Source: Aestuariispira ectoiniformans (lineage in GTDB: Bacteria; Pseudomonadota; Alphaproteobacteria; UBA8366; Aestuariispiraceae). From it: a DNA stretch of 64,000 bases. The DNA lies in contig NZ_CP062788.1 of the NCBI RefSeq assembly GCF_025136295.1, positions 1,519,001 to 1,583,000 of the forward strand. Direction: 5' to 3'. The first letter of the stretch is position 1. The number at the start of each line of letters is the position of its first letter. The notes below the pieces were generated by a model. It had not been told where the DNA came from. It saw only the letters and a program-made list of their open reading frames with translations, and searched no databases. The translations under genes were made by a program, and so were the position numbers. Below are positions 10,779 through 24,565 of this stretch, in pieces.

Positions 10779-10792
10779 CCAATCAATACGGC

Positions 10793-10937
<145 letters not shown>

Positions 10938-11050
10938 TGTTCTGCCGTATGCAGAACCCGATCTTGATAGCGAAACTGCAGGTGTATGGCTACATCAAAA
11001 GCGCCATGTTTTTGAAAGGTGGCCGACTTTTCAGCTTCGTGTAATGAGAA

Positions 11051-11189: not shown

Positions 11190-12452
11190 ATGAAAAAACT
11201 ATTTGCAGGCGTGGCGCTTTCGGTTGTCGCCGCCAATCCGGTCCTCGCCGATACGGTCGACAAGGCTGCGGTTCTGACCAACTATTCCAATATTGCCCAC
11301 GCGGTCTATGAGGATTCTTTGATTACGGCGAAGGCCCTGCAGGTGGCCGTCAACGCCCTGGTGAAAAACCCGAGTGACGAGACCTTGGCTGCGGCGCGCA
11401 AAGCCTGGATCGCGGCCCGTGCGCCTTACCAGCAGTCCGAAACCTTCCGTTTTGGCAATTCCGTCGTCGATGACTGGGAAGGCAAGGTGAACGCATGGCC
11501 GTTGGACGAAGGTCTGATTGACTATGTCGATGCGTCCTATGGCACGGAATCGGATGAAAACGTTGCCTATGTCGCCAACGTTATTGCCAACGAAAAACTG
11601 GTTCTTGGTGGCGAAGAAGTCGACGCTTCCAAGATTACCAAGGAACTTCTGGCGGATAAGCTGCAGGAAGCGGACGAAGTCGAGGCTAACGTGGCAACCG
11701 GTTATCACGCCATTGAATTCCTGCTCTGGGGCCAGGACCTGAACGGCACCGGCCCGGGTGCGGGCAACCGTCCGGCAAGCGACTATGACACCAAGAATTG
11801 CACCGGTGGTCACTGTGACCGTCGTGCGGAATATCTGACCGTTGCGACCGACCTGCTGGTGGACGATCTGCAGGAAATGGTCGATGCCTGGGACAAGGAT
11901 GGCGCGGCGCGCGTCGAGGTCATGGCCAATGTTGACCAGGGGCTGGTTTCCGCCTTTACCGGTATGGGGTCGCTGTCCTATGGCGAACTGGCCGGGGAAC
12001 GCATGAAGCTTGGTGTCATGCTGCATGACCCGGAAGAAGAACATGATTGCTTCTCCGACAACACGCATAACTCCCATTACTATGACGCCAAGGGTATCCA
12101 GAATGTTTATCTGGGCAAATACACCCGCGTTGACGGAAGCGTGGTGCAGGGGCCCAGCCTGTCTGACCTGGTTGCCGAAAAAGACAAAGGCGCAGACCAG
12201 AACCTGCGCGGCAAGCTGGACGCGACCATGGCGGCCATGACGGTCCTTGTCAAAACCGCAGAAGGCGGTGAAGCATACGACCAGATGCTGGCTGAAGGTA
12301 ATGATGCCGGTAACAAGATCATTCAGGATGCTGTTGACGGTCTGACTACCCAGACCAAGGCGATTGAAAAAGCCGTGGCGGCCCTGGACCTGTCCGCGAT
12401 CCAGTTTGAAGGGTCTGACAGTCTGGACAACCCGGACGCCGTTTACAATTAA
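11190..12452 (+). CDS. Imelysin family protein (IrpA-like, M75), periplasmic iron-linked
   Basis: This 420-residue protein has a Sec signal peptide (MKKLFAGVALSVVAANPVLA, cleavage before DT). Imelysins are two-domain helical proteins of the periplasm or outer membrane linked to iron uptake, and despite the M75 label no proteolysis is established. The GxHxxE motif is present at residues 171-176 (GYHAIE), followed by FLLWGQDLNGTGPGAGNRPA, typical of the IrpA branch. It opens a five-gene run with two di-heme oxidoreductase-like genes, a second imelysin and a DUF1513 gene. A Fur-like site lies upstream. Iron binding is inferred from the family and motif. Confidence 0.9.
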   Translation: MKKLFAGVALSVVAANPVLADTVDKAAVLTNYSNIAHAVYEDSLITAKALQVAVNALVKNPSDETLAAARKAWIAARAPYQQSETFRFGNSVVDDWEGKVNAWPLDEGLIDYVDASYGTESDENVAYVANVIANEKLVLGGEEVDASKITKELLADKLQEADEVEANVATGYHAIEFLLWGQDLNGTGPGAGNRPASDYDTKNCTGGHCDRRAEYLTVATDLLVDDLQEMVDAWDKDGAARVEVMANVDQGLVSAFTGMGSLSYGELAGERMKLGVMLHDPEEEHDCFSDNTHNSHYYDAKGIQNVYLGKYTRVDGSVVQGPSLSDLVAEKDKGADQNLRGKLDATMAAMTVLVKTAEGGEAYDQMLAEGNDAGNKIIQDAVDGLTTQTKAIEKAVAALDLSAIQFEGSDSLDNPDAVYN

Positions 12453-12481
12453 TCCCCTTCCGGGATTGGCAGATTTGGGGG

Positions 12482-12509
12482 ACTGGCGGTGCGTTTTCGC
12501 ACCGCCGGT
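12482..12509 (+). promoter_or_regulatory. Intercistronic hairpin
   Basis: ACTGGCGGTGCG (12482-12493) pairs with CGCACCGCCGGT (12498-12509) around a TTTT loop, 12 base pairs with one wobble. No U-run follows. It may stabilise the upstream mRNA or attenuate readthrough between the first imelysin and the di-heme gene. Confidence 0.6.
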
Positions 12510-12534
12510 CCTCCTGCCGTTTGGAGAAGTTTGT

Positions 12535-14001
12535 ATGCGACAGTATTTCGCATCTGTTTTGTTTGCTGCCGGTCTTGCCCTGACCGGTCTTTCGGCGCAG
12601 GCCGAAGTGCTGCCCTGGCCGACGGATTTCGCGAAGGCGCAACCGGGGGAGGATAGTCCCGGCGGCGAGGCATCGCATGGTAAACGGTCTGACCGGAAGG
12701 CCTTTTCCTACCCCGCGGATAATCTGCCGTTCGACCGGCGGCTGGATTTCAAGGTCGGCTTCGGCTTTTTCAAAAGACTTTGGGTTTCCGCACCGGCCTC
12801 GACCCAGGCGGCGGATGGTCTCGGCCCACTGTTCAATACGCGCTCTTGCCTGCGTTGCCATGTGGGCAATGGCCGTGGCGTCGTGCCGAAGAAGGGGGAG
12901 GAGGCAGCATCTCTTTTTTTGCGCCTCAGCATTCCGCCCCAAAACGACGATGACCGCAGGGCACTGGCCTCTCACAGGCTGTCGGTGATACCGGACCCGG
13001 TTTATGGCGGGCAGTTGCAGAACCTGTCGATCCAGGGGCACCGCGCCGAAGGGAAAATGGGGCTGTCCTACACGGCTCTGCCGGTGCGGTTGAAAGATGG
13101 CTCTGTTATCACGCTGTGCAAACCTCACTATGCAATTGAGAACCCCGCCTATGGTCAGCCCCATCCGGATTTGATGATCTCGCCGCGTATCGCATCGCCG
13201 ATGATCGGGCTGGGGCTGCTGGAAGCCATTCCGGAGGAAGACCTTCTGGCCCTGGCCGATCCCGATGACGCGGATGGCGACGGTATCTCCGGCAAGCCTA
13301 ACAAGGTCTGGAGCCGCCACATGAAGAAGGTGGCGATCGGACGGTTCGGCTGGAAGGCGGGAAATGCCACGGTGGACGACCAGAATGCCTCTGCTTTTAG
13401 TGGCGATGTGGGGATTTCCTCGCCGCTTTTTCCCGAAGGTTGGGGTGAATGTACCGCCGCCCAGAAGGATTGCCGCGCAGCCCCGGACGGTAACAGCCCG
13501 CAGTATGACAATGTGGAAGCATCGGCGCAGATCATGGACCTGCTGTTGCTTTACACACGCAATATCGCCGTACCCCGGAGAGTGAATGCGGGTGACCGCC
13601 AGGTGCTTGCGGGCAAGAAGCTGTTCTTTGACAACGGCTGTGCGGCCTGCCATCAACCGGGCTATGTGACTTCGGCAACGGCGGAGAACCCCTACAGCAG
13701 AGGGCAGAAAATCTGGCCCTATACGGACTTGCTGCTCCATGACATGGGAGATGACCTTGCGGATCACAGGCCGGAAGGGGAAGCAACGGGCCGTGAATGG
13801 AGGACGCCGCCGCTGTGGGGGCTGGGACAAACGGCGCTGGTCAGTGATGGCCGGGAAAGTTATTTACATGACGGACGGGCGCGGACCCTGTTGGAGGCCA
13901 TCCTGTGGCATGGCGGGGAAGCGGAGAATGCAAAGAACAACGTTGTTGCCATGAACAAGGCTGACAGGGCGGCATTGATCGCCTTTTTGAAGTCGCTGTA
14001 A
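12535..14001 (+). CDS. Di-heme oxidoreductase family protein (DUF1111), first copy
   Basis: This 488-residue exported protein (MRQYFASVLFAAGLALTGLSAQA signal peptide) carries two c-type heme motifs, C105-LR-C108-H109 and C369-AA-C372-H373. The family is DUF1111, di-heme proteins distantly similar to MauG and cytochrome c peroxidases. Conserved blocks LGPLFNTRSCLRCHVGNG, DADGDGISGKPN and LLLHDMGDDLADH are present. The ATG has GGAGAAG upstream. A redox role in iron handling beside imelysins is suggested by repeated co-occurrence in other genomes, but the substrate is unknown. The genes of the run are co-directional and closely spaced. Confidence 0.88.
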   Translation: MRQYFASVLFAAGLALTGLSAQAEVLPWPTDFAKAQPGEDSPGGEASHGKRSDRKAFSYPADNLPFDRRLDFKVGFGFFKRLWVSAPASTQAADGLGPLFNTRSCLRCHVGNGRGVVPKKGEEAASLFLRLSIPPQNDDDRRALASHRLSVIPDPVYGGQLQNLSIQGHRAEGKMGLSYTALPVRLKDGSVITLCKPHYAIENPAYGQPHPDLMISPRIASPMIGLGLLEAIPEEDLLALADPDDADGDGISGKPNKVWSRHMKKVAIGRFGWKAGNATVDDQNASAFSGDVGISSPLFPEGWGECTAAQKDCRAAPDGNSPQYDNVEASAQIMDLLLLYTRNIAVPRRVNAGDRQVLAGKKLFFDNGCAACHQPGYVTSATAENPYSRGQKIWPYTDLLLHDMGDDLADHRPEGEATGREWRTPPLWGLGQTALVSDGRESYLHDGRARTLLEAILWHGGEAENAKNNVVAMNKADRAALIAFLKSL

Positions 14002-14029
14002 TGCCCAAGGACATAAGAAGGATGAAAAT

Positions 14030-15100
14030 ATGATCACGAAGACAGTCTCTGCGGCAATCATATTGGCCACTTTGGGTGTCGGGGCCCCGGCCTATGCTGA
14101 CATTGCCTATGAAAAGGCCAACCATCAGATCGTCGAGGCGCATATCCTGCCCGGTTACACCGCCTTTGCACAAGCCGGTCAGAGGCTGAAAACCGCGACG
14201 CATTCCTATTGCGGCGAGGGTGAGACTTCCCTTGATGGATTGAAAGAGGTGATGCAGGGGGCGATGGCATCCTGGCAGTCCATTCAGCATATCCGCTTTG
14301 GTCCAATTGCTGAGGAAGACCGTCACTTTCGGATCGAGTTCTGGCCTGACAAGCGGAACATGACCAGCAAGGCGCTTACCTCGCTTCGACAGGATATTGC
14401 CAAGGGCGACACTGTGGATGACGAGCGGATCGCGCAGACCAGTGTGGCCGCCCAGGGTTTTCCTGCGCTGGAGCGATTGTTGTATGGCGATAAGGATATT
14501 CAGCCCGGCAGTGCCGATTGTCAGCTTGCCGAAGTCATCAGCGATAATGTGGCCGGAATTGCAGATGCGACTTTGAAGGCATGGGGTGATGATGGCTTTG
14601 CAGAGCGCAGCCTGAGCGGTTTCGGATACTACCAGGAGCCGAAGGACCTGACCTTTGAACTGTTCAAAGCCTTCAAGACCAGTCTGGAGTGGGTCGAAGA
14701 CAGCAAACTGCGTCGTCCGTTGGGGGACGATATGAAACATGCCCGCAGCCATCGGGCCGAATCCTGGCGGTCCGCCACGTCGGCGGACCATATTCTCCTC
14801 AATATTGACGCAATTGAGGCTTTCTATAGTGCCAACAAGACAGGTGGCTTTGCCGCCCTGTTGCAGGAAACACCGGTAGGGACCGATCTGCATTGGGGCA
14901 TTCTGGGCAAGCTTCATGAGGCACGGGAAGCGATCCGTAAAATTGACGGACCGCTCTACAAGGCCGTCAAGGATCCTGCGGGGCGTGCGCATATGGAAGA
15001 TGCCATAGCCGCGCTGCGCGAAATGCGCGAATGGGTCGATACGGAAATGGCGTCTTTGCTGGAGATGCCGCTGGGTTTTAATAGTTTGGATGGTGACTGA
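14030..15100 (+). CDS. Imelysin family protein, second copy
   Basis: This 356-residue exported protein (MITKTVSAAIILATLGVGAPAYA, cleavage before DI) is shorter than the first imelysin. Where the family has GxHxxE it reads GFPALE at residues 143-148, so the histidine is replaced by proline; the glutamate is kept. This suggests a divergent branch with altered metal binding rather than a redundant copy. The stop codon overlaps the start of the DUF1513 gene by one base (TGATG). It probably works in the periplasm with the other products of the run. Confidence 0.85.
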   Translation: MITKTVSAAIILATLGVGAPAYADIAYEKANHQIVEAHILPGYTAFAQAGQRLKTATHSYCGEGETSLDGLKEVMQGAMASWQSIQHIRFGPIAEEDRHFRIEFWPDKRNMTSKALTSLRQDIAKGDTVDDERIAQTSVAAQGFPALERLLYGDKDIQPGSADCQLAEVISDNVAGIADATLKAWGDDGFAERSLSGFGYYQEPKDLTFELFKAFKTSLEWVEDSKLRRPLGDDMKHARSHRAESWRSATSADHILLNIDAIEAFYSANKTGGFAALLQETPVGTDLHWGILGKLHEAREAIRKIDGPLYKAVKDPAGRAHMEDAIAALREMREWVDTEMASLLEMPLGFNSLDGD

Positions 15101-16221
15101 TGCAATTCTCGATGAACCGCAGAACCTTATTGAAAGCACTGGCGTCGCAGGCTGTATTCGTGCCTTTTGGTGCACGGTTCGGGTTGGCGCAGGATGAGGC
15201 ATTGTTCATCAGCGCCTATGCGGACAAGGACGACCACATGTGGGTTGGTGGCATTGATGTATCCGGCAAGGAGATCTTTCGTCATGCCCTGCCGGCCCGC
15301 GCCCATGGAATGGCCCGCCGTCCCGGCACCCTTGAGGCTGCGGTCTTCGCGCGACGTCCGGGTGACTATGTGGCAGTGATCGACCTGTTCTCCGGCAATA
15401 CGGTTCACGAAGTTAAGGTTCCTGAAAACCGGCGCTTTTACGGGCATGGCGCATTCAGTCTGGACGGGCGCTATCTTTTCACGACCGAGAATGACTTCGA
15501 CGGTGAGAAAGGCGTGATCGGTATCTGGGACGCCAAGGATAACTACAAGCGCATTGGCGAGCATAAGGCCTATGGCATCGGTCCGCACCAGATCGAACTC
15601 ATGCCGGACGGGCAGACGCTGGTGGTGGCAGTCGGTGGTATTCTGACCCATCCGGACGAGGGTCGCCGCAAGCTGAATATTCCGGATATGGAACCGGCGC
15701 TGGTTTATCTGGATGCGCGTAGTGGACAATTGGTAAATCGCCTGACCCTGCCGCATAAATATCACAAGTTGAGCATCCGGCATCTGGCCGTCACACGGCA
15801 GGGACAGGTTTTCGCCGGTCTGCAGAACCAGGGGCCGAAGCATGAGGTCGTGCCCTTGGCGATTACGCATTTCGGGAAAGGCGAACTGACCTTCCTGGAG
15901 GCGGGCCATGATGTCTGGCAGCGTCAGAAAAACTATGTGGGCAGTGTGATTGTCGACAGTGGCAGTGCCGTGGTCGGCATGACGTCTCCGCGTGGCAACT
16001 GCATCGAATTCTGGAATATTGAAGATGGCCGCCATATCGGCAGTACATCCATTCCCGATGTTTGCGGGCTGGCCCCGACGAAGGACCTTGGCGTCTTCCT
16101 GGCAACCAGTGGCGCAGGCGGGGTTTATCGGATCGACGCATATAGCGGTCGCAACATACATGTGCTTGAACCGCGCGATGACTTCCGGCGTTGGGACAAC
16201 CATATGCTGCGCATCATATAA
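15100..16221 (+). CDS. DUF1513 beta-propeller protein, probable Tat export
   Basis: This 373-residue protein starts MQFSMNRRTLLKALASQAVF; the RR followed by a hydrophobic stretch resembles a twin-arginine signal. A start four codons later (MNRR, 15112) is equally possible. The body has repeated beta-rich blades (EAAVFARRPGDYVAVIDLF, GHGAFSLDGRYLFTTENDFD, SIRHLAVTRQGQVFAGLQNQ) as in the WD40/YVTN-like DUF1513 family. DUF1513 genes are frequent next to imelysin and DUF1111 genes. The function is not known. Tat export would imply folding, or cofactor loading, before export. Confidence 0.85.
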   Translation: MQFSMNRRTLLKALASQAVFVPFGARFGLAQDEALFISAYADKDDHMWVGGIDVSGKEIFRHALPARAHGMARRPGTLEAAVFARRPGDYVAVIDLFSGNTVHEVKVPENRRFYGHGAFSLDGRYLFTTENDFDGEKGVIGIWDAKDNYKRIGEHKAYGIGPHQIELMPDGQTLVVAVGGILTHPDEGRRKLNIPDMEPALVYLDARSGQLVNRLTLPHKYHKLSIRHLAVTRQGQVFAGLQNQGPKHEVVPLAITHFGKGELTFLEAGHDVWQRQKNYVGSVIVDSGSAVVGMTSPRGNCIEFWNIEDGRHIGSTSIPDVCGLAPTKDLGVFLATSGAGGVYRIDAYSGRNIHVLEPRDDFRRWDNHMLRII

Positions 16222-16263
16222 GAGCGCTTGATTACCGGCCCATGGGGTCAGTAAAGATAGCCT

Positions 16264-17526
16264 ATGCGTTGGTTTGCAATTCTCTTCCTCTTTCTGATCG
16301 CCGCGAAGGCGGCGGCCACTGACCTGCCCGACGCCTTCGGGCGTGCGCGGGACGGGCTGACTGTGAAACAGCAGGCGATTTTTGCGAAGGGGCGGGCCGT
16401 CTTCAACCGGGACTGGGTGCCCTATCCAGGCTATCGGGATGATCTGGACGGCCTGGGGCCGCTGTTCAACCGGGTTTCCTGCAGCGGCTGCCATTTCGCC
16501 AATGGACGCGGACGACCGCCCCAGACCGAAGACGAGCCTTTTATCTCTATGGTCCTGCGTGTGCATATGGAAAGCAGCCGTAGCAGGAAAATGCATCCCG
16601 TCTACGGCGGGCAGGTCAATGACCGTGCGCTGCCGACCGTCCCTGCAGAGGGCGCGCCGCATGTTTCCTATCATGAACAGGCCGGACGTTATCCCGACGG
16701 TGCAGATTATTCCCTCCAGGTTCCCACGTATCGGGTTGAAGGCGGTGCTTACGGTCCCCTGGATAATGCCGTCTTTTCCCCGCGGGTTGCCCCGCAATTT
16801 GCCGGTGTCGGATTGCTGGCCCGGGTTCCTGCCAAGGTGGTTGAGGCCCTTGCGGACCCTGATGACCGGGATGGCGACGGCATTTCCGGGCGGGTCCGGT
16901 ATATAGGCAAAGGGGGCGTTGAATATATCGGGCGGTTCGGCTGGAAAGCGGCGCAGCCGACGATCCGGGACCAGACCGTCAGCGCGCTCTATGAAGACAT
17001 CGGCATAACAAGTGCGGCCCACTCCAGACAGAATTGCCTGCCATCGCAAACCGCCTGTCGGCTCTCTGCCGCACAGGAGGGGCCGGAAATATCCGAAGAC
17101 GACCTGTCTCATCTGGTGTCCTATCAGATGTGGCTGATGCCTCCGACCGCTGGCACGACCTCTGTGGAGGGCCGTGCGGCCTTTGAGGCGGCCGGATGTG
17201 ATGCCTGCCACAGACCGGCCCTGCCGTTGGAAGATGGAGGAACGGCTGCCGCCTTCACAGATTTGCTGCTGCATGATATGGGCGACGGGCTGTCTGATGG
17301 CGGGGCGAATATCCTGTCACGGGAATGGCGGACGGCCCCGCTCTGGGGGATCGGACATATTGCGCAAGTGAACGGTCATACGCGTCTGCTGCATGATGGC
17401 CGGGCGCGGAATGTGGAAGAAGCAATCCTATGGCATGGTGGAGAAGCCCAGGCCTCCAAGGAGGCTTTCATGCGGTTGCCGTCAATGGACCGCAAGGCCG
17501 TTATCGAGTTTATCGAAGGATTATAA
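16264..17526 (+). CDS. Di-heme oxidoreductase family protein (DUF1111), second copy
   Basis: This 420-residue paralogue of the gene at 12535 has a short signal peptide (MRWFAILFLFLIAAKAAA) and two heme motifs, C73-SG-C76-H77 and C312-DA-C315-H316. It keeps LGPLFNRVSCSGCHFANGRG, DRDGDGISGRVR and LLLHDMGDGLSDG. It is about 70 residues shorter than the first copy, mostly before the second heme. It follows DUF1513 by 42 bases and ends the run at a terminator. Two copies with different spacing suggest separate electron-transfer partners, which is inference. Confidence 0.88.
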   Translation: MRWFAILFLFLIAAKAAATDLPDAFGRARDGLTVKQQAIFAKGRAVFNRDWVPYPGYRDDLDGLGPLFNRVSCSGCHFANGRGRPPQTEDEPFISMVLRVHMESSRSRKMHPVYGGQVNDRALPTVPAEGAPHVSYHEQAGRYPDGADYSLQVPTYRVEGGAYGPLDNAVFSPRVAPQFAGVGLLARVPAKVVEALADPDDRDGDGISGRVRYIGKGGVEYIGRFGWKAAQPTIRDQTVSALYEDIGITSAAHSRQNCLPSQTACRLSAAQEGPEISEDDLSHLVSYQMWLMPPTAGTTSVEGRAAFEAAGCDACHRPALPLEDGGTAAAFTDLLLHDMGDGLSDGGANILSREWRTAPLWGIGHIAQVNGHTRLLHDGRARNVEEAILWHGGEAQASKEAFMRLPSMDRKAVIEFIEGL

Positions 17527-23910: not shown

Positions 23911-24270
23911 TTAGTGATAGGTTGCCTGTTCCGGCCTGCGGTTTCGCCGCCGTGCCGGAACCGCAGGCGCGTTTATCACCTGCCGCAACAGGTCCAGCAA
24001 TTCCTGCTGACTGGATGATGCGGTTTCCCTGAGCCAGTCACTGTAAGTCTTGAGAACCTGCCCGGCGGCTTCCTGGGGCGATTGCCTGCCCGGCAGTGCC
24101 ATCACCCATAACAGCAATGTGTCCCGCGCGCATGGCGCATGCGCCGGATCGGCAAAAAACTGCCAGATCACGGACTGTGGATCGCTCGCGCACAGGGGTG
24201 GGGTTGAGGTCGTGCTCAGGTTGCTTGAAGCAGGGGAGGCGTCGGAACGCCCTTGTGTCGATACCGTCAT
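23911..24270 (-). CDS. Uncharacterized small protein downstream of a cobalamin riboswitch
   Basis: I do not recognise this 119-residue protein. Its N-terminus is Ser/Thr-rich (DASPASSNLSTTSTPP), the middle is helical (SVIWQFFADPAHAPCARDTL, LLLWVMALPGRQSPQEAAGQ, VLKTYSDWLRETASSSQQEL) and the tail is basic (PARRRNRRPEQATYH). There is no signal peptide or clear membrane span. Expression evidence is good: AAGGAG six bases before the ATG and a cobalamin riboswitch ending 48 bases upstream on the same strand. A role in cobalamin or cobalt metabolism, or as a replacement for a B12-dependent step, is inference from that switch alone. Confidence 0.7.
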   Translation of the reverse strand: MTVSTQGRSDASPASSNLSTTSTPPLCASDPQSVIWQFFADPAHAPCARDTLLLWVMALPGRQSPQEAAGQVLKTYSDWLRETASSSQQELLDLLRQVINAPAVPARRRNRRPEQATYH

Positions 24271-24318
24271 GTCGTCTCCTTCCGGGGCACCCCGCCCGGT
24301 CAGCTAGAGTTAATTTTT

Positions 24319-24494
24319 CGACAACGGCAGGTCTCCTGGCTCGCGCTTCTTCGCCTTTGATCCTGATCTTCCCGGTTGCCCAGTGATACTGACGGATCGG
24401 GCTCCGCGCCTACAGTTGCGGGGGCAGCTTCGGAATAGGTCGAAAAGACCGCACCGAATTCCCTATTGTTCCCATGATCGGGGAACCGTTATCG
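24319..24494 (-). ncRNA. Cobalamin riboswitch
   Basis: On the minus strand the segment reads through AATAGGGAATTCGGTGCGG, CTGCCCCCGCAACTGTAGGC, CAGTATCACTGGGCAACCGGG and GCGCGAGCCAGGAGACCTGCC, the conserved blocks of the B12 aptamer. CGATAACGG at the 5' end and CCGTTGTCG at the 3' end form a nine-base-pair closing stem. It precedes the 119-residue ORF, with no known B12 gene nearby. Confidence 0.95.
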
Positions 24495-24565
24495 GCAGCG
24501 ACAGTAGCAGATAAATGATGCTTCGCAACGATCAAAACGCCTCAGGAAGATGTTTTCGCGACACG

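Follow-up and report, generated by a model that had tools for sequence, protein, structure and literature searches.

A complete cobalamin riboswitch precedes a 119-codon gene of an unnamed protein family in the stretch of DNA analysed here (the window, 64,000 nucleotides in its full length), and riboswitch and gene recur together across that family. We propose, with a probability of roughly 0.4, that the protein is a non-enzymatic small adaptor or accessory of B12/cobalt supply, which would be made when adenosylcobalamin is low and would work with or alongside CobW at the cobalt-insertion stage. The unit in the window consists of the following features.

24309..24505, minus strand: complete cobalamin riboswitch aptamer (Rfam RF00174, 115.4 bits, E 3.3e-28, gathering score 31.5, model positions 1-189, all 189)
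24413..24428, minus strand: L5 region of the aptamer (GCTGCCCCCGCAACTG), the aptamer half of the proposed kissing loop
24282..24299, minus strand: P13-like hairpin of the expression platform (CCGGGCGGGGTGCCCCGG), whose loop could pair with L5
24276..24283, minus strand: Shine-Dalgarno sequence GGAAGGAG, read from the sequence, overlapping the 3' edge of the P13-like hairpin
23911..24270, minus strand: 119-codon gene of the unnamed family, with an ATG start, an acidic predicted-helical core, an invariant Trp (W55) and an Arg-rich C-terminal tail

The original prediction of a complete aptamer followed by a gene with a good ribosome binding site was borne out; the Shine-Dalgarno sequence stands before the ATG, which lies 38 nt past the aptamer end. 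Set against the known RF00174 regulons, the RNA itself is ordinary: it is full-length, and its start site is arranged in the L5/L13 manner (compare the description in PMC9600662, after which L5 and L13 are named here). In the window, CCCCGC of L5 is complementary to GCGGGG of the start-site hairpin, with the Shine-Dalgarno sequence adjoining, as far as the letters themselves can tell. The L5 region is identical in all 19 riboswitch-linked members compared (of 41 linked), and the L13-like loop reads CGGGG in 37 of the 41 and CGG(C/T)GG in the other four. The stem of the hairpin varies among lineages with pairing still possible (CCGGG/CCCGG in the window, CCGAC/GTCGG in genome G021). An in-frame start lies directly behind the L13-like hairpin in 38 of the 41 linked members, where the layout of L195, L057 and L061 was judged by eye from the sequence letters; strand and spacing of riboswitch and gene were verified for all 41 (19 + 22). 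Since single-sequence folding makes the window hairpin no more stable than shuffled sequence (z 0.80), the hairpin is supported by its conservation and not by its energy. In the three exceptions, L014, L205 and L206, the start codon directly behind the Shine-Dalgarno sequence is out of frame with the conserved open reading frame. The out-of-frame start of L014 opens a 25-codon frame that ends just before a GTG start, and this may be a leader peptide or a frameshift.

According to the account in PMC9600662, the L5-L13 kissing loop of this riboswitch class responds to the binding of ligand and acts on the expression platform. Because the L13-like hairpin overlaps the Shine-Dalgarno sequence, we infer translational repression, and repression by adenosylcobalamin is the most likely direction of switching by analogy with the class. 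When adenosylcobalamin is plentiful, its binding would favour the kissing loop of the L5 region with the hairpin, and translation of the gene would be blocked. When the cofactor is low, the start site would be free and the protein would be made. The protein would then act with or beside CobW, which is described as the cobalt metallochaperone of the late-insertion route (PMC7895991, PMC10206600), at the stage where cobalt is inserted.

Profile searches delineate a family of small, predicted-helical alphaproteobacterial proteins of about 90-125 residues. A single-sequence search of 59 genomes with the window protein gave weak relatives and many chance matches (30 loci), and only loci recovered again by profile were retained; the RNA scan covered 17 of the 30 loci and found a riboswitch with a homologous open reading frame behind it at 12 of these. 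When a profile of these 12 members was run against the 43 genomes of the order with a limit of E 0.001, only the 12 genomes they came from were recovered. Family f1, to which the window's genome belongs, counts 14 genomes, and in 11 of them the gene stands behind a riboswitch. Of the three that lack the gene, G006 showed no cobalamin riboswitch, and those found in G002 and G008 belong to different genes. Class-wide, the profile matched 23 of 385 genomes at E 0.05, and a second class-wide search with the stricter limit of E 0.001 matched 20 of 384. When the phylum was sampled, 17 of 398 genomes matched, all 17 in the window's own class, and two orders searched in full carried the family in 13 of 31 and 49 of 61 genomes. 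Several candidates were set aside: L011 (G057), which by eye overlaps a mazG-like gene on the opposite strand; L023, L025, L026 and L030, which have no riboswitch and were not recovered by profile; and the six loci L064-L069 (E 0.011-0.046, no riboswitch found in them), dropped before counting.

Could the riboswitch be a relic in front of a meaningless open reading frame? The lack of an annotated domain and the weak single-sequence homology would suit such a reading, but a profile made without the member from genome G297 finds that member at E 1.5e-20, and dN/dS values of 0.11 (L004/L009) and 0.17 (L057/L059), from the two pairs with usable dS (0.66 and 0.70; the other six pairs had dS above 1.4 or were saturated), indicate purifying selection on the family. 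The Trp that corresponds to W55 is invariant in all 75 aligned members (the 78 members minus three f26 rows), and D30 is kept in 73 of them. The window protein, itself one row of the family profile, has all of the conserved marks: the profile match, the invariant Trp, the DP and P..AA positions, and the basic tail. The outcome that had been named as fatal to the original prediction, an open reading frame with neither homologues nor conservation, thus did not occur, and we reject the relic as extremely improbable because the family and its start-site layout are conserved.

A cobalamin riboswitch lies directly upstream, on the same strand, in 41 of the 78 distinct members whose flanks were scanned, in several families and orders; this linkage in homologues was the test that the original prediction had named. 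The linkage was found in 12/12 members of the window's order, 7/13 of the class-wide set, 11/12 new loci in the order of G273, 11/27 new loci in the order of G297, and 0/14 further loci of the class- and phylum-wide searches (14 being counted from 16, as two repeat earlier ones); 19 more genomes matched in the search that gave 49/61 lie outside the count of 78. By eye, the riboswitch-gene unit holds together as its neighbours change, these being variously chemotaxis-receptor, Mn-riboswitch, MarR, MATE, murI, serC and ctaA. Because it recurs in every homologue of the order and in so many members overall, the pairing is more than chance.

Two neighbour contexts are informative, and the first of them is cobW. 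In the order of G273 it lies directly downstream of the gene in 11 of 13 member loci, or 11 of the 12 with enough downstream sequence to tell: the region of G786 extends only 242 bases downstream and cannot show cobW either way, and the part of G787 that was read contains none. The gap between the gene and cobW was 4-28 nt in the 10 regions measured in this order. Two of the CobW proteins, at 520 and 502 bits, exceed the equivalog cut-off of 332 bits for CobW, and the same two are 57-60% identical to the CobW of cobU-cobW-cobN operons recognized by eye. For one cobW-linked copy (G796), a limit relaxed to E 1 still gives no riboswitch. In G799, a TauE/SafE-like permease gene, assigned by eye (L237 1960-2850, plus strand), comes after riboswitch, open reading frame and cobW. 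No cobW was found near the gene in the other 65 member loci, the window's genome included, where in most cases about 1.5 kb was available to either side. A role in cobalt or B12 supply is what the cobW operons favour, and we infer that role and any contact with CobW.

The protein itself is not a CobW. Its link to CobW (TIGR02475) is that of a direct operon partner in the one order, whereas the small protein lacks a P-loop and any conserved Cys, and none of the CobW models recognizes it. CobW and the other COG0523 GTPases have a P-loop GTPase domain and a metal-binding Cys motif, and the window protein, with 0 Pfam/NCBIfam families and no conserved Cys, does not belong among them. More generally, it was described at the outset as an uncharacterized 119-residue protein without known motifs, and no Pfam or NCBIfam match was indeed found up to E 10. 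Ten other members gave three stray matches to these libraries, all under cut-off. The 21 alignment rows gave only two stray Pfam matches (the better one LcrG, in one member, at E 0.0065) and none among the PHROGs at E 0.01, and a profile search of PDB sequences yielded nothing up to E 10. Two AlphaFold models from four-row alignments are of low confidence (pLDDT 62.3 and 59.4) and disagree in the number of helices; the first has four, and its Foldseek comparison with the PDB gave 41 matches, all of them weaker than E 0.001. Literature searches found no paper about the family in titles and abstract openings, where an unnamed mention in full texts or supplementary regulon tables is possible. The family is thus without a name or a model in the libraries searched.

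Which functions do the sequences argue against? In the alignment of 75 members every Cys and His column stays under 45%, and apart from D30 and D64 no acid column reaches 70%. The window protein was predicted to be cytosolic, and its most hydrophobic 19-residue stretch averages only 0.77; a transmembrane-like stretch is absent in all 36 members measured. With no conserved Cys or His, few conserved acids and no membrane-like stretch, a role as an enzyme, metal carrier or transporter appears unlikely, and an adaptor or a regulator is what remains. B12-binding proteins have a conserved His in their cobalamin-binding motif, and the family has no His column above the level just given. Distant kinship to cobalt chelatase or cobalamin-processing subunits, the relationship that the original prediction had proposed to look for, did not materialize: no curated family model of known B12-pathway enzymes or cobaltochelatase subunits was matched by the window protein or the members searched. 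Nor did the window protein, with only 119 residues, match a model of the B12-independent isozymes (MetE and the like) up to E 10. A regulon survey sorts the targets of these riboswitches into four categories, namely B12 synthesis, transport of B12 and its precursors, cobalt transport, and isozymes of B12 enzymes (PMC3766115). Unlike the targets in the categories given there, the gene controlled here fits none of the four on present evidence.

Riboswitch-free members, 37 of the 78, bear on the question from another side. In family f26, glnE lies directly upstream at 14/14 loci (the identity of one glnE was confirmed by a model) and no riboswitch was found at any of these 14. Our guess is that f26 is the Rhodobacteraceae. 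Of the 17 riboswitch-free members in the order of G297, 15 have a SAM-methyltransferase-like gene upstream, usually no more than about 40 nt away, its family assignment scoring under cut-offs. The other riboswitch-free members have other neighbours (L054, L055, L056, L062, L102, L201 and two of the order of G297). Profile-profile comparison confirmed that the groups are homologous: riboswitch-linked against f26, 97.5% probability, E 6e-12; riboswitch-linked against the other riboswitch-free group, 99.1%, E 5.5e-19; and the latter against f26, 98.9%, E 3.3e-17, where the f26 set included L104, from another family. The f26 proteins share the Trp motif and the basic tail with the riboswitch-linked ones but differ in being shorter and in their setting. 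A tree of 36 rows, with 9 of 33 inner branches well supported, splits riboswitch-linked from glnE-linked rows (93/91), with six unlabelled rows, left uncounted, intermixed. Four riboswitch-bearing copies (L053, L211, L212, L215) also have this methyltransferase gene upstream, at a distance of 221-285 nt; the same locus is thus found with and without the riboswitch, so that riboswitch control has been gained or lost in place.

With so many members lacking the riboswitch and 29 of these standing behind glnE or the methyltransferase gene, the activity need not be B12-specific, and the ancestral activity of the family may be unrelated to cobalt. The tail is a further consideration. It was predicted to be basic in the window protein, and the last 16 residues do carry a net charge of +4 (the remainder -3); the charge of this segment is +3 to +9 in 35 of the 36 members measured, and an RRGG tail is common among the riboswitch-free ones. 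The riboswitch-free relatives and the Arg-rich tail together favour a general effector of B12 status, a generic small regulator that would bind RNA, the ribosome or an enzyme through its tail, would have been placed behind a riboswitch in some lineages, and would there reshape metabolism at low B12. The gain or loss of control in place and the isolated position of the gene in the window agree with such an effector, but cobW adjoins the gene in most loci of the order of G273, and no RNA-binding domain was recognized by Pfam/NCBIfam in the members searched. We consider the general effector nearly as likely as the accessory of B12/cobalt supply. The claim that the protein is a riboswitch-governed member of the B12 pathway is supported by the linkage and by the cobW operons of one order, with the qualification that 37 of the 78 members lack the riboswitch, so that the activity may not be B12-specific.

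In the window, the end of the gene lies 28 nt from the end of the convergent ctaA on the opposite strand, so that the gene is probably transcribed alone; a DUF218 gene lies upstream of it on the same strand. The original prediction had placed no B12 gene nearby, which is nearly right, but cysG (21562-20129; CysG equivalog), a sirohaem gene and the nearest tetrapyrrole gene seen on the gene's strand, lies beyond ctaA (other strand) and a nitrilase-family gene. Two other features of the window were observed. An FMN riboswitch (RF00050, 118 bits; 10789-10941, minus strand) precedes an open reading frame at 10718-10230 that is by eye a lumazine synthase (ribH2-like), and a cluster of imelysin-like, di-haem cytochrome-like and DUF1513-like genes, also assigned by eye, occupies 11190-17526 (plus strand), about 6 kb from the riboswitch gene. 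A by-eye comparable imelysin-like/di-haem cytochrome-like/DUF1513-like cluster lies near the riboswitch-gene unit of G021 (L083 7420-12001, minus strand).

The unit of G021 also bears on an explanation by methionine or methyl-group metabolism, in which the protein would be made when B12-dependent methionine synthesis fails and would partner MetE, betaine-dependent routes or a SAM methyltransferase. This is the second informative context: a full-length metE follows the gene by 17 nt in G021 (1123 bits, cut-off 930). The case is weak, as the G021 member sits on the tree's longest branch and has an acidic tail and a start codon behind the Shine-Dalgarno sequence that is out of frame. The methyltransferase-like gene of the order of G297, with the sub-threshold assignment already mentioned, would suit the same explanation, as would two more riboswitches of the window's genome, of which one precedes a gene with a homocysteine-methyltransferase domain and the other, by eye, a Rieske betaine-demethylase-like gene. 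Full-length metE was found, however, in only one of the 30 genomes checked, 20 of which have the family, and the operons of the order of G273 hold cobW. We regard a methionine factor as improbable. Matches to the metH and NrdJ models occurred in all 30 chosen genomes, and the co-occurrence of metH, metE and class II ribonucleotide reductase separated nothing. The distance between nrdJ and the gene is about 8-11 kb in G004, G009, G011, G012 and G013; proximity to nrdJ was left unused as evidence because the distance is at least 240 kb in G000 and G003.

Cobalamin riboswitches also stand before other genes. At G000:C1:1707446-1708109 (L031, L038) two divergent cobalamin riboswitches lie 240 nt apart, one before a gene with a homocysteine-methyltransferase domain and the other before a gene that is by eye like glutathione-independent formaldehyde dehydrogenase. 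Cobalamin riboswitches at L035, L144, L159, L160, L162, L165 and L177 precede genes resembling, by eye, the Rieske subunit of glycine-betaine demethylase. The Rieske-like and homocysteine-methyltransferase targets could represent a B12-independent use of betaine that is turned on when B12-dependent betaine demethylation, of the kind described in PMC12478193, would fail.

Returning to the accessory of B12/cobalt supply, a more specific version can be formulated, in which B12 supply by the aerobic route (late cobalt insertion) has an undescribed, non-catalytic part in this protein. As a small helical adaptor, turned on at B12 shortage, it would help CobW or cobaltochelatase; it occurs in several orders and would have been recruited from small alphaproteobacterial proteins of an older family with Arg-rich tails. 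In this detailed form we consider it less likely than not. The combination of riboswitch and cobW operon makes a concrete, testable prediction on B12 supply. The riboswitch-free relatives, some of them at the same locus as linked copies, offer a route to the basic activity of the protein and a chance to follow a gene as it enters and leaves B12 control. It is probable that the gene supplies a missing piece in the response of these bacteria to B12 shortage.
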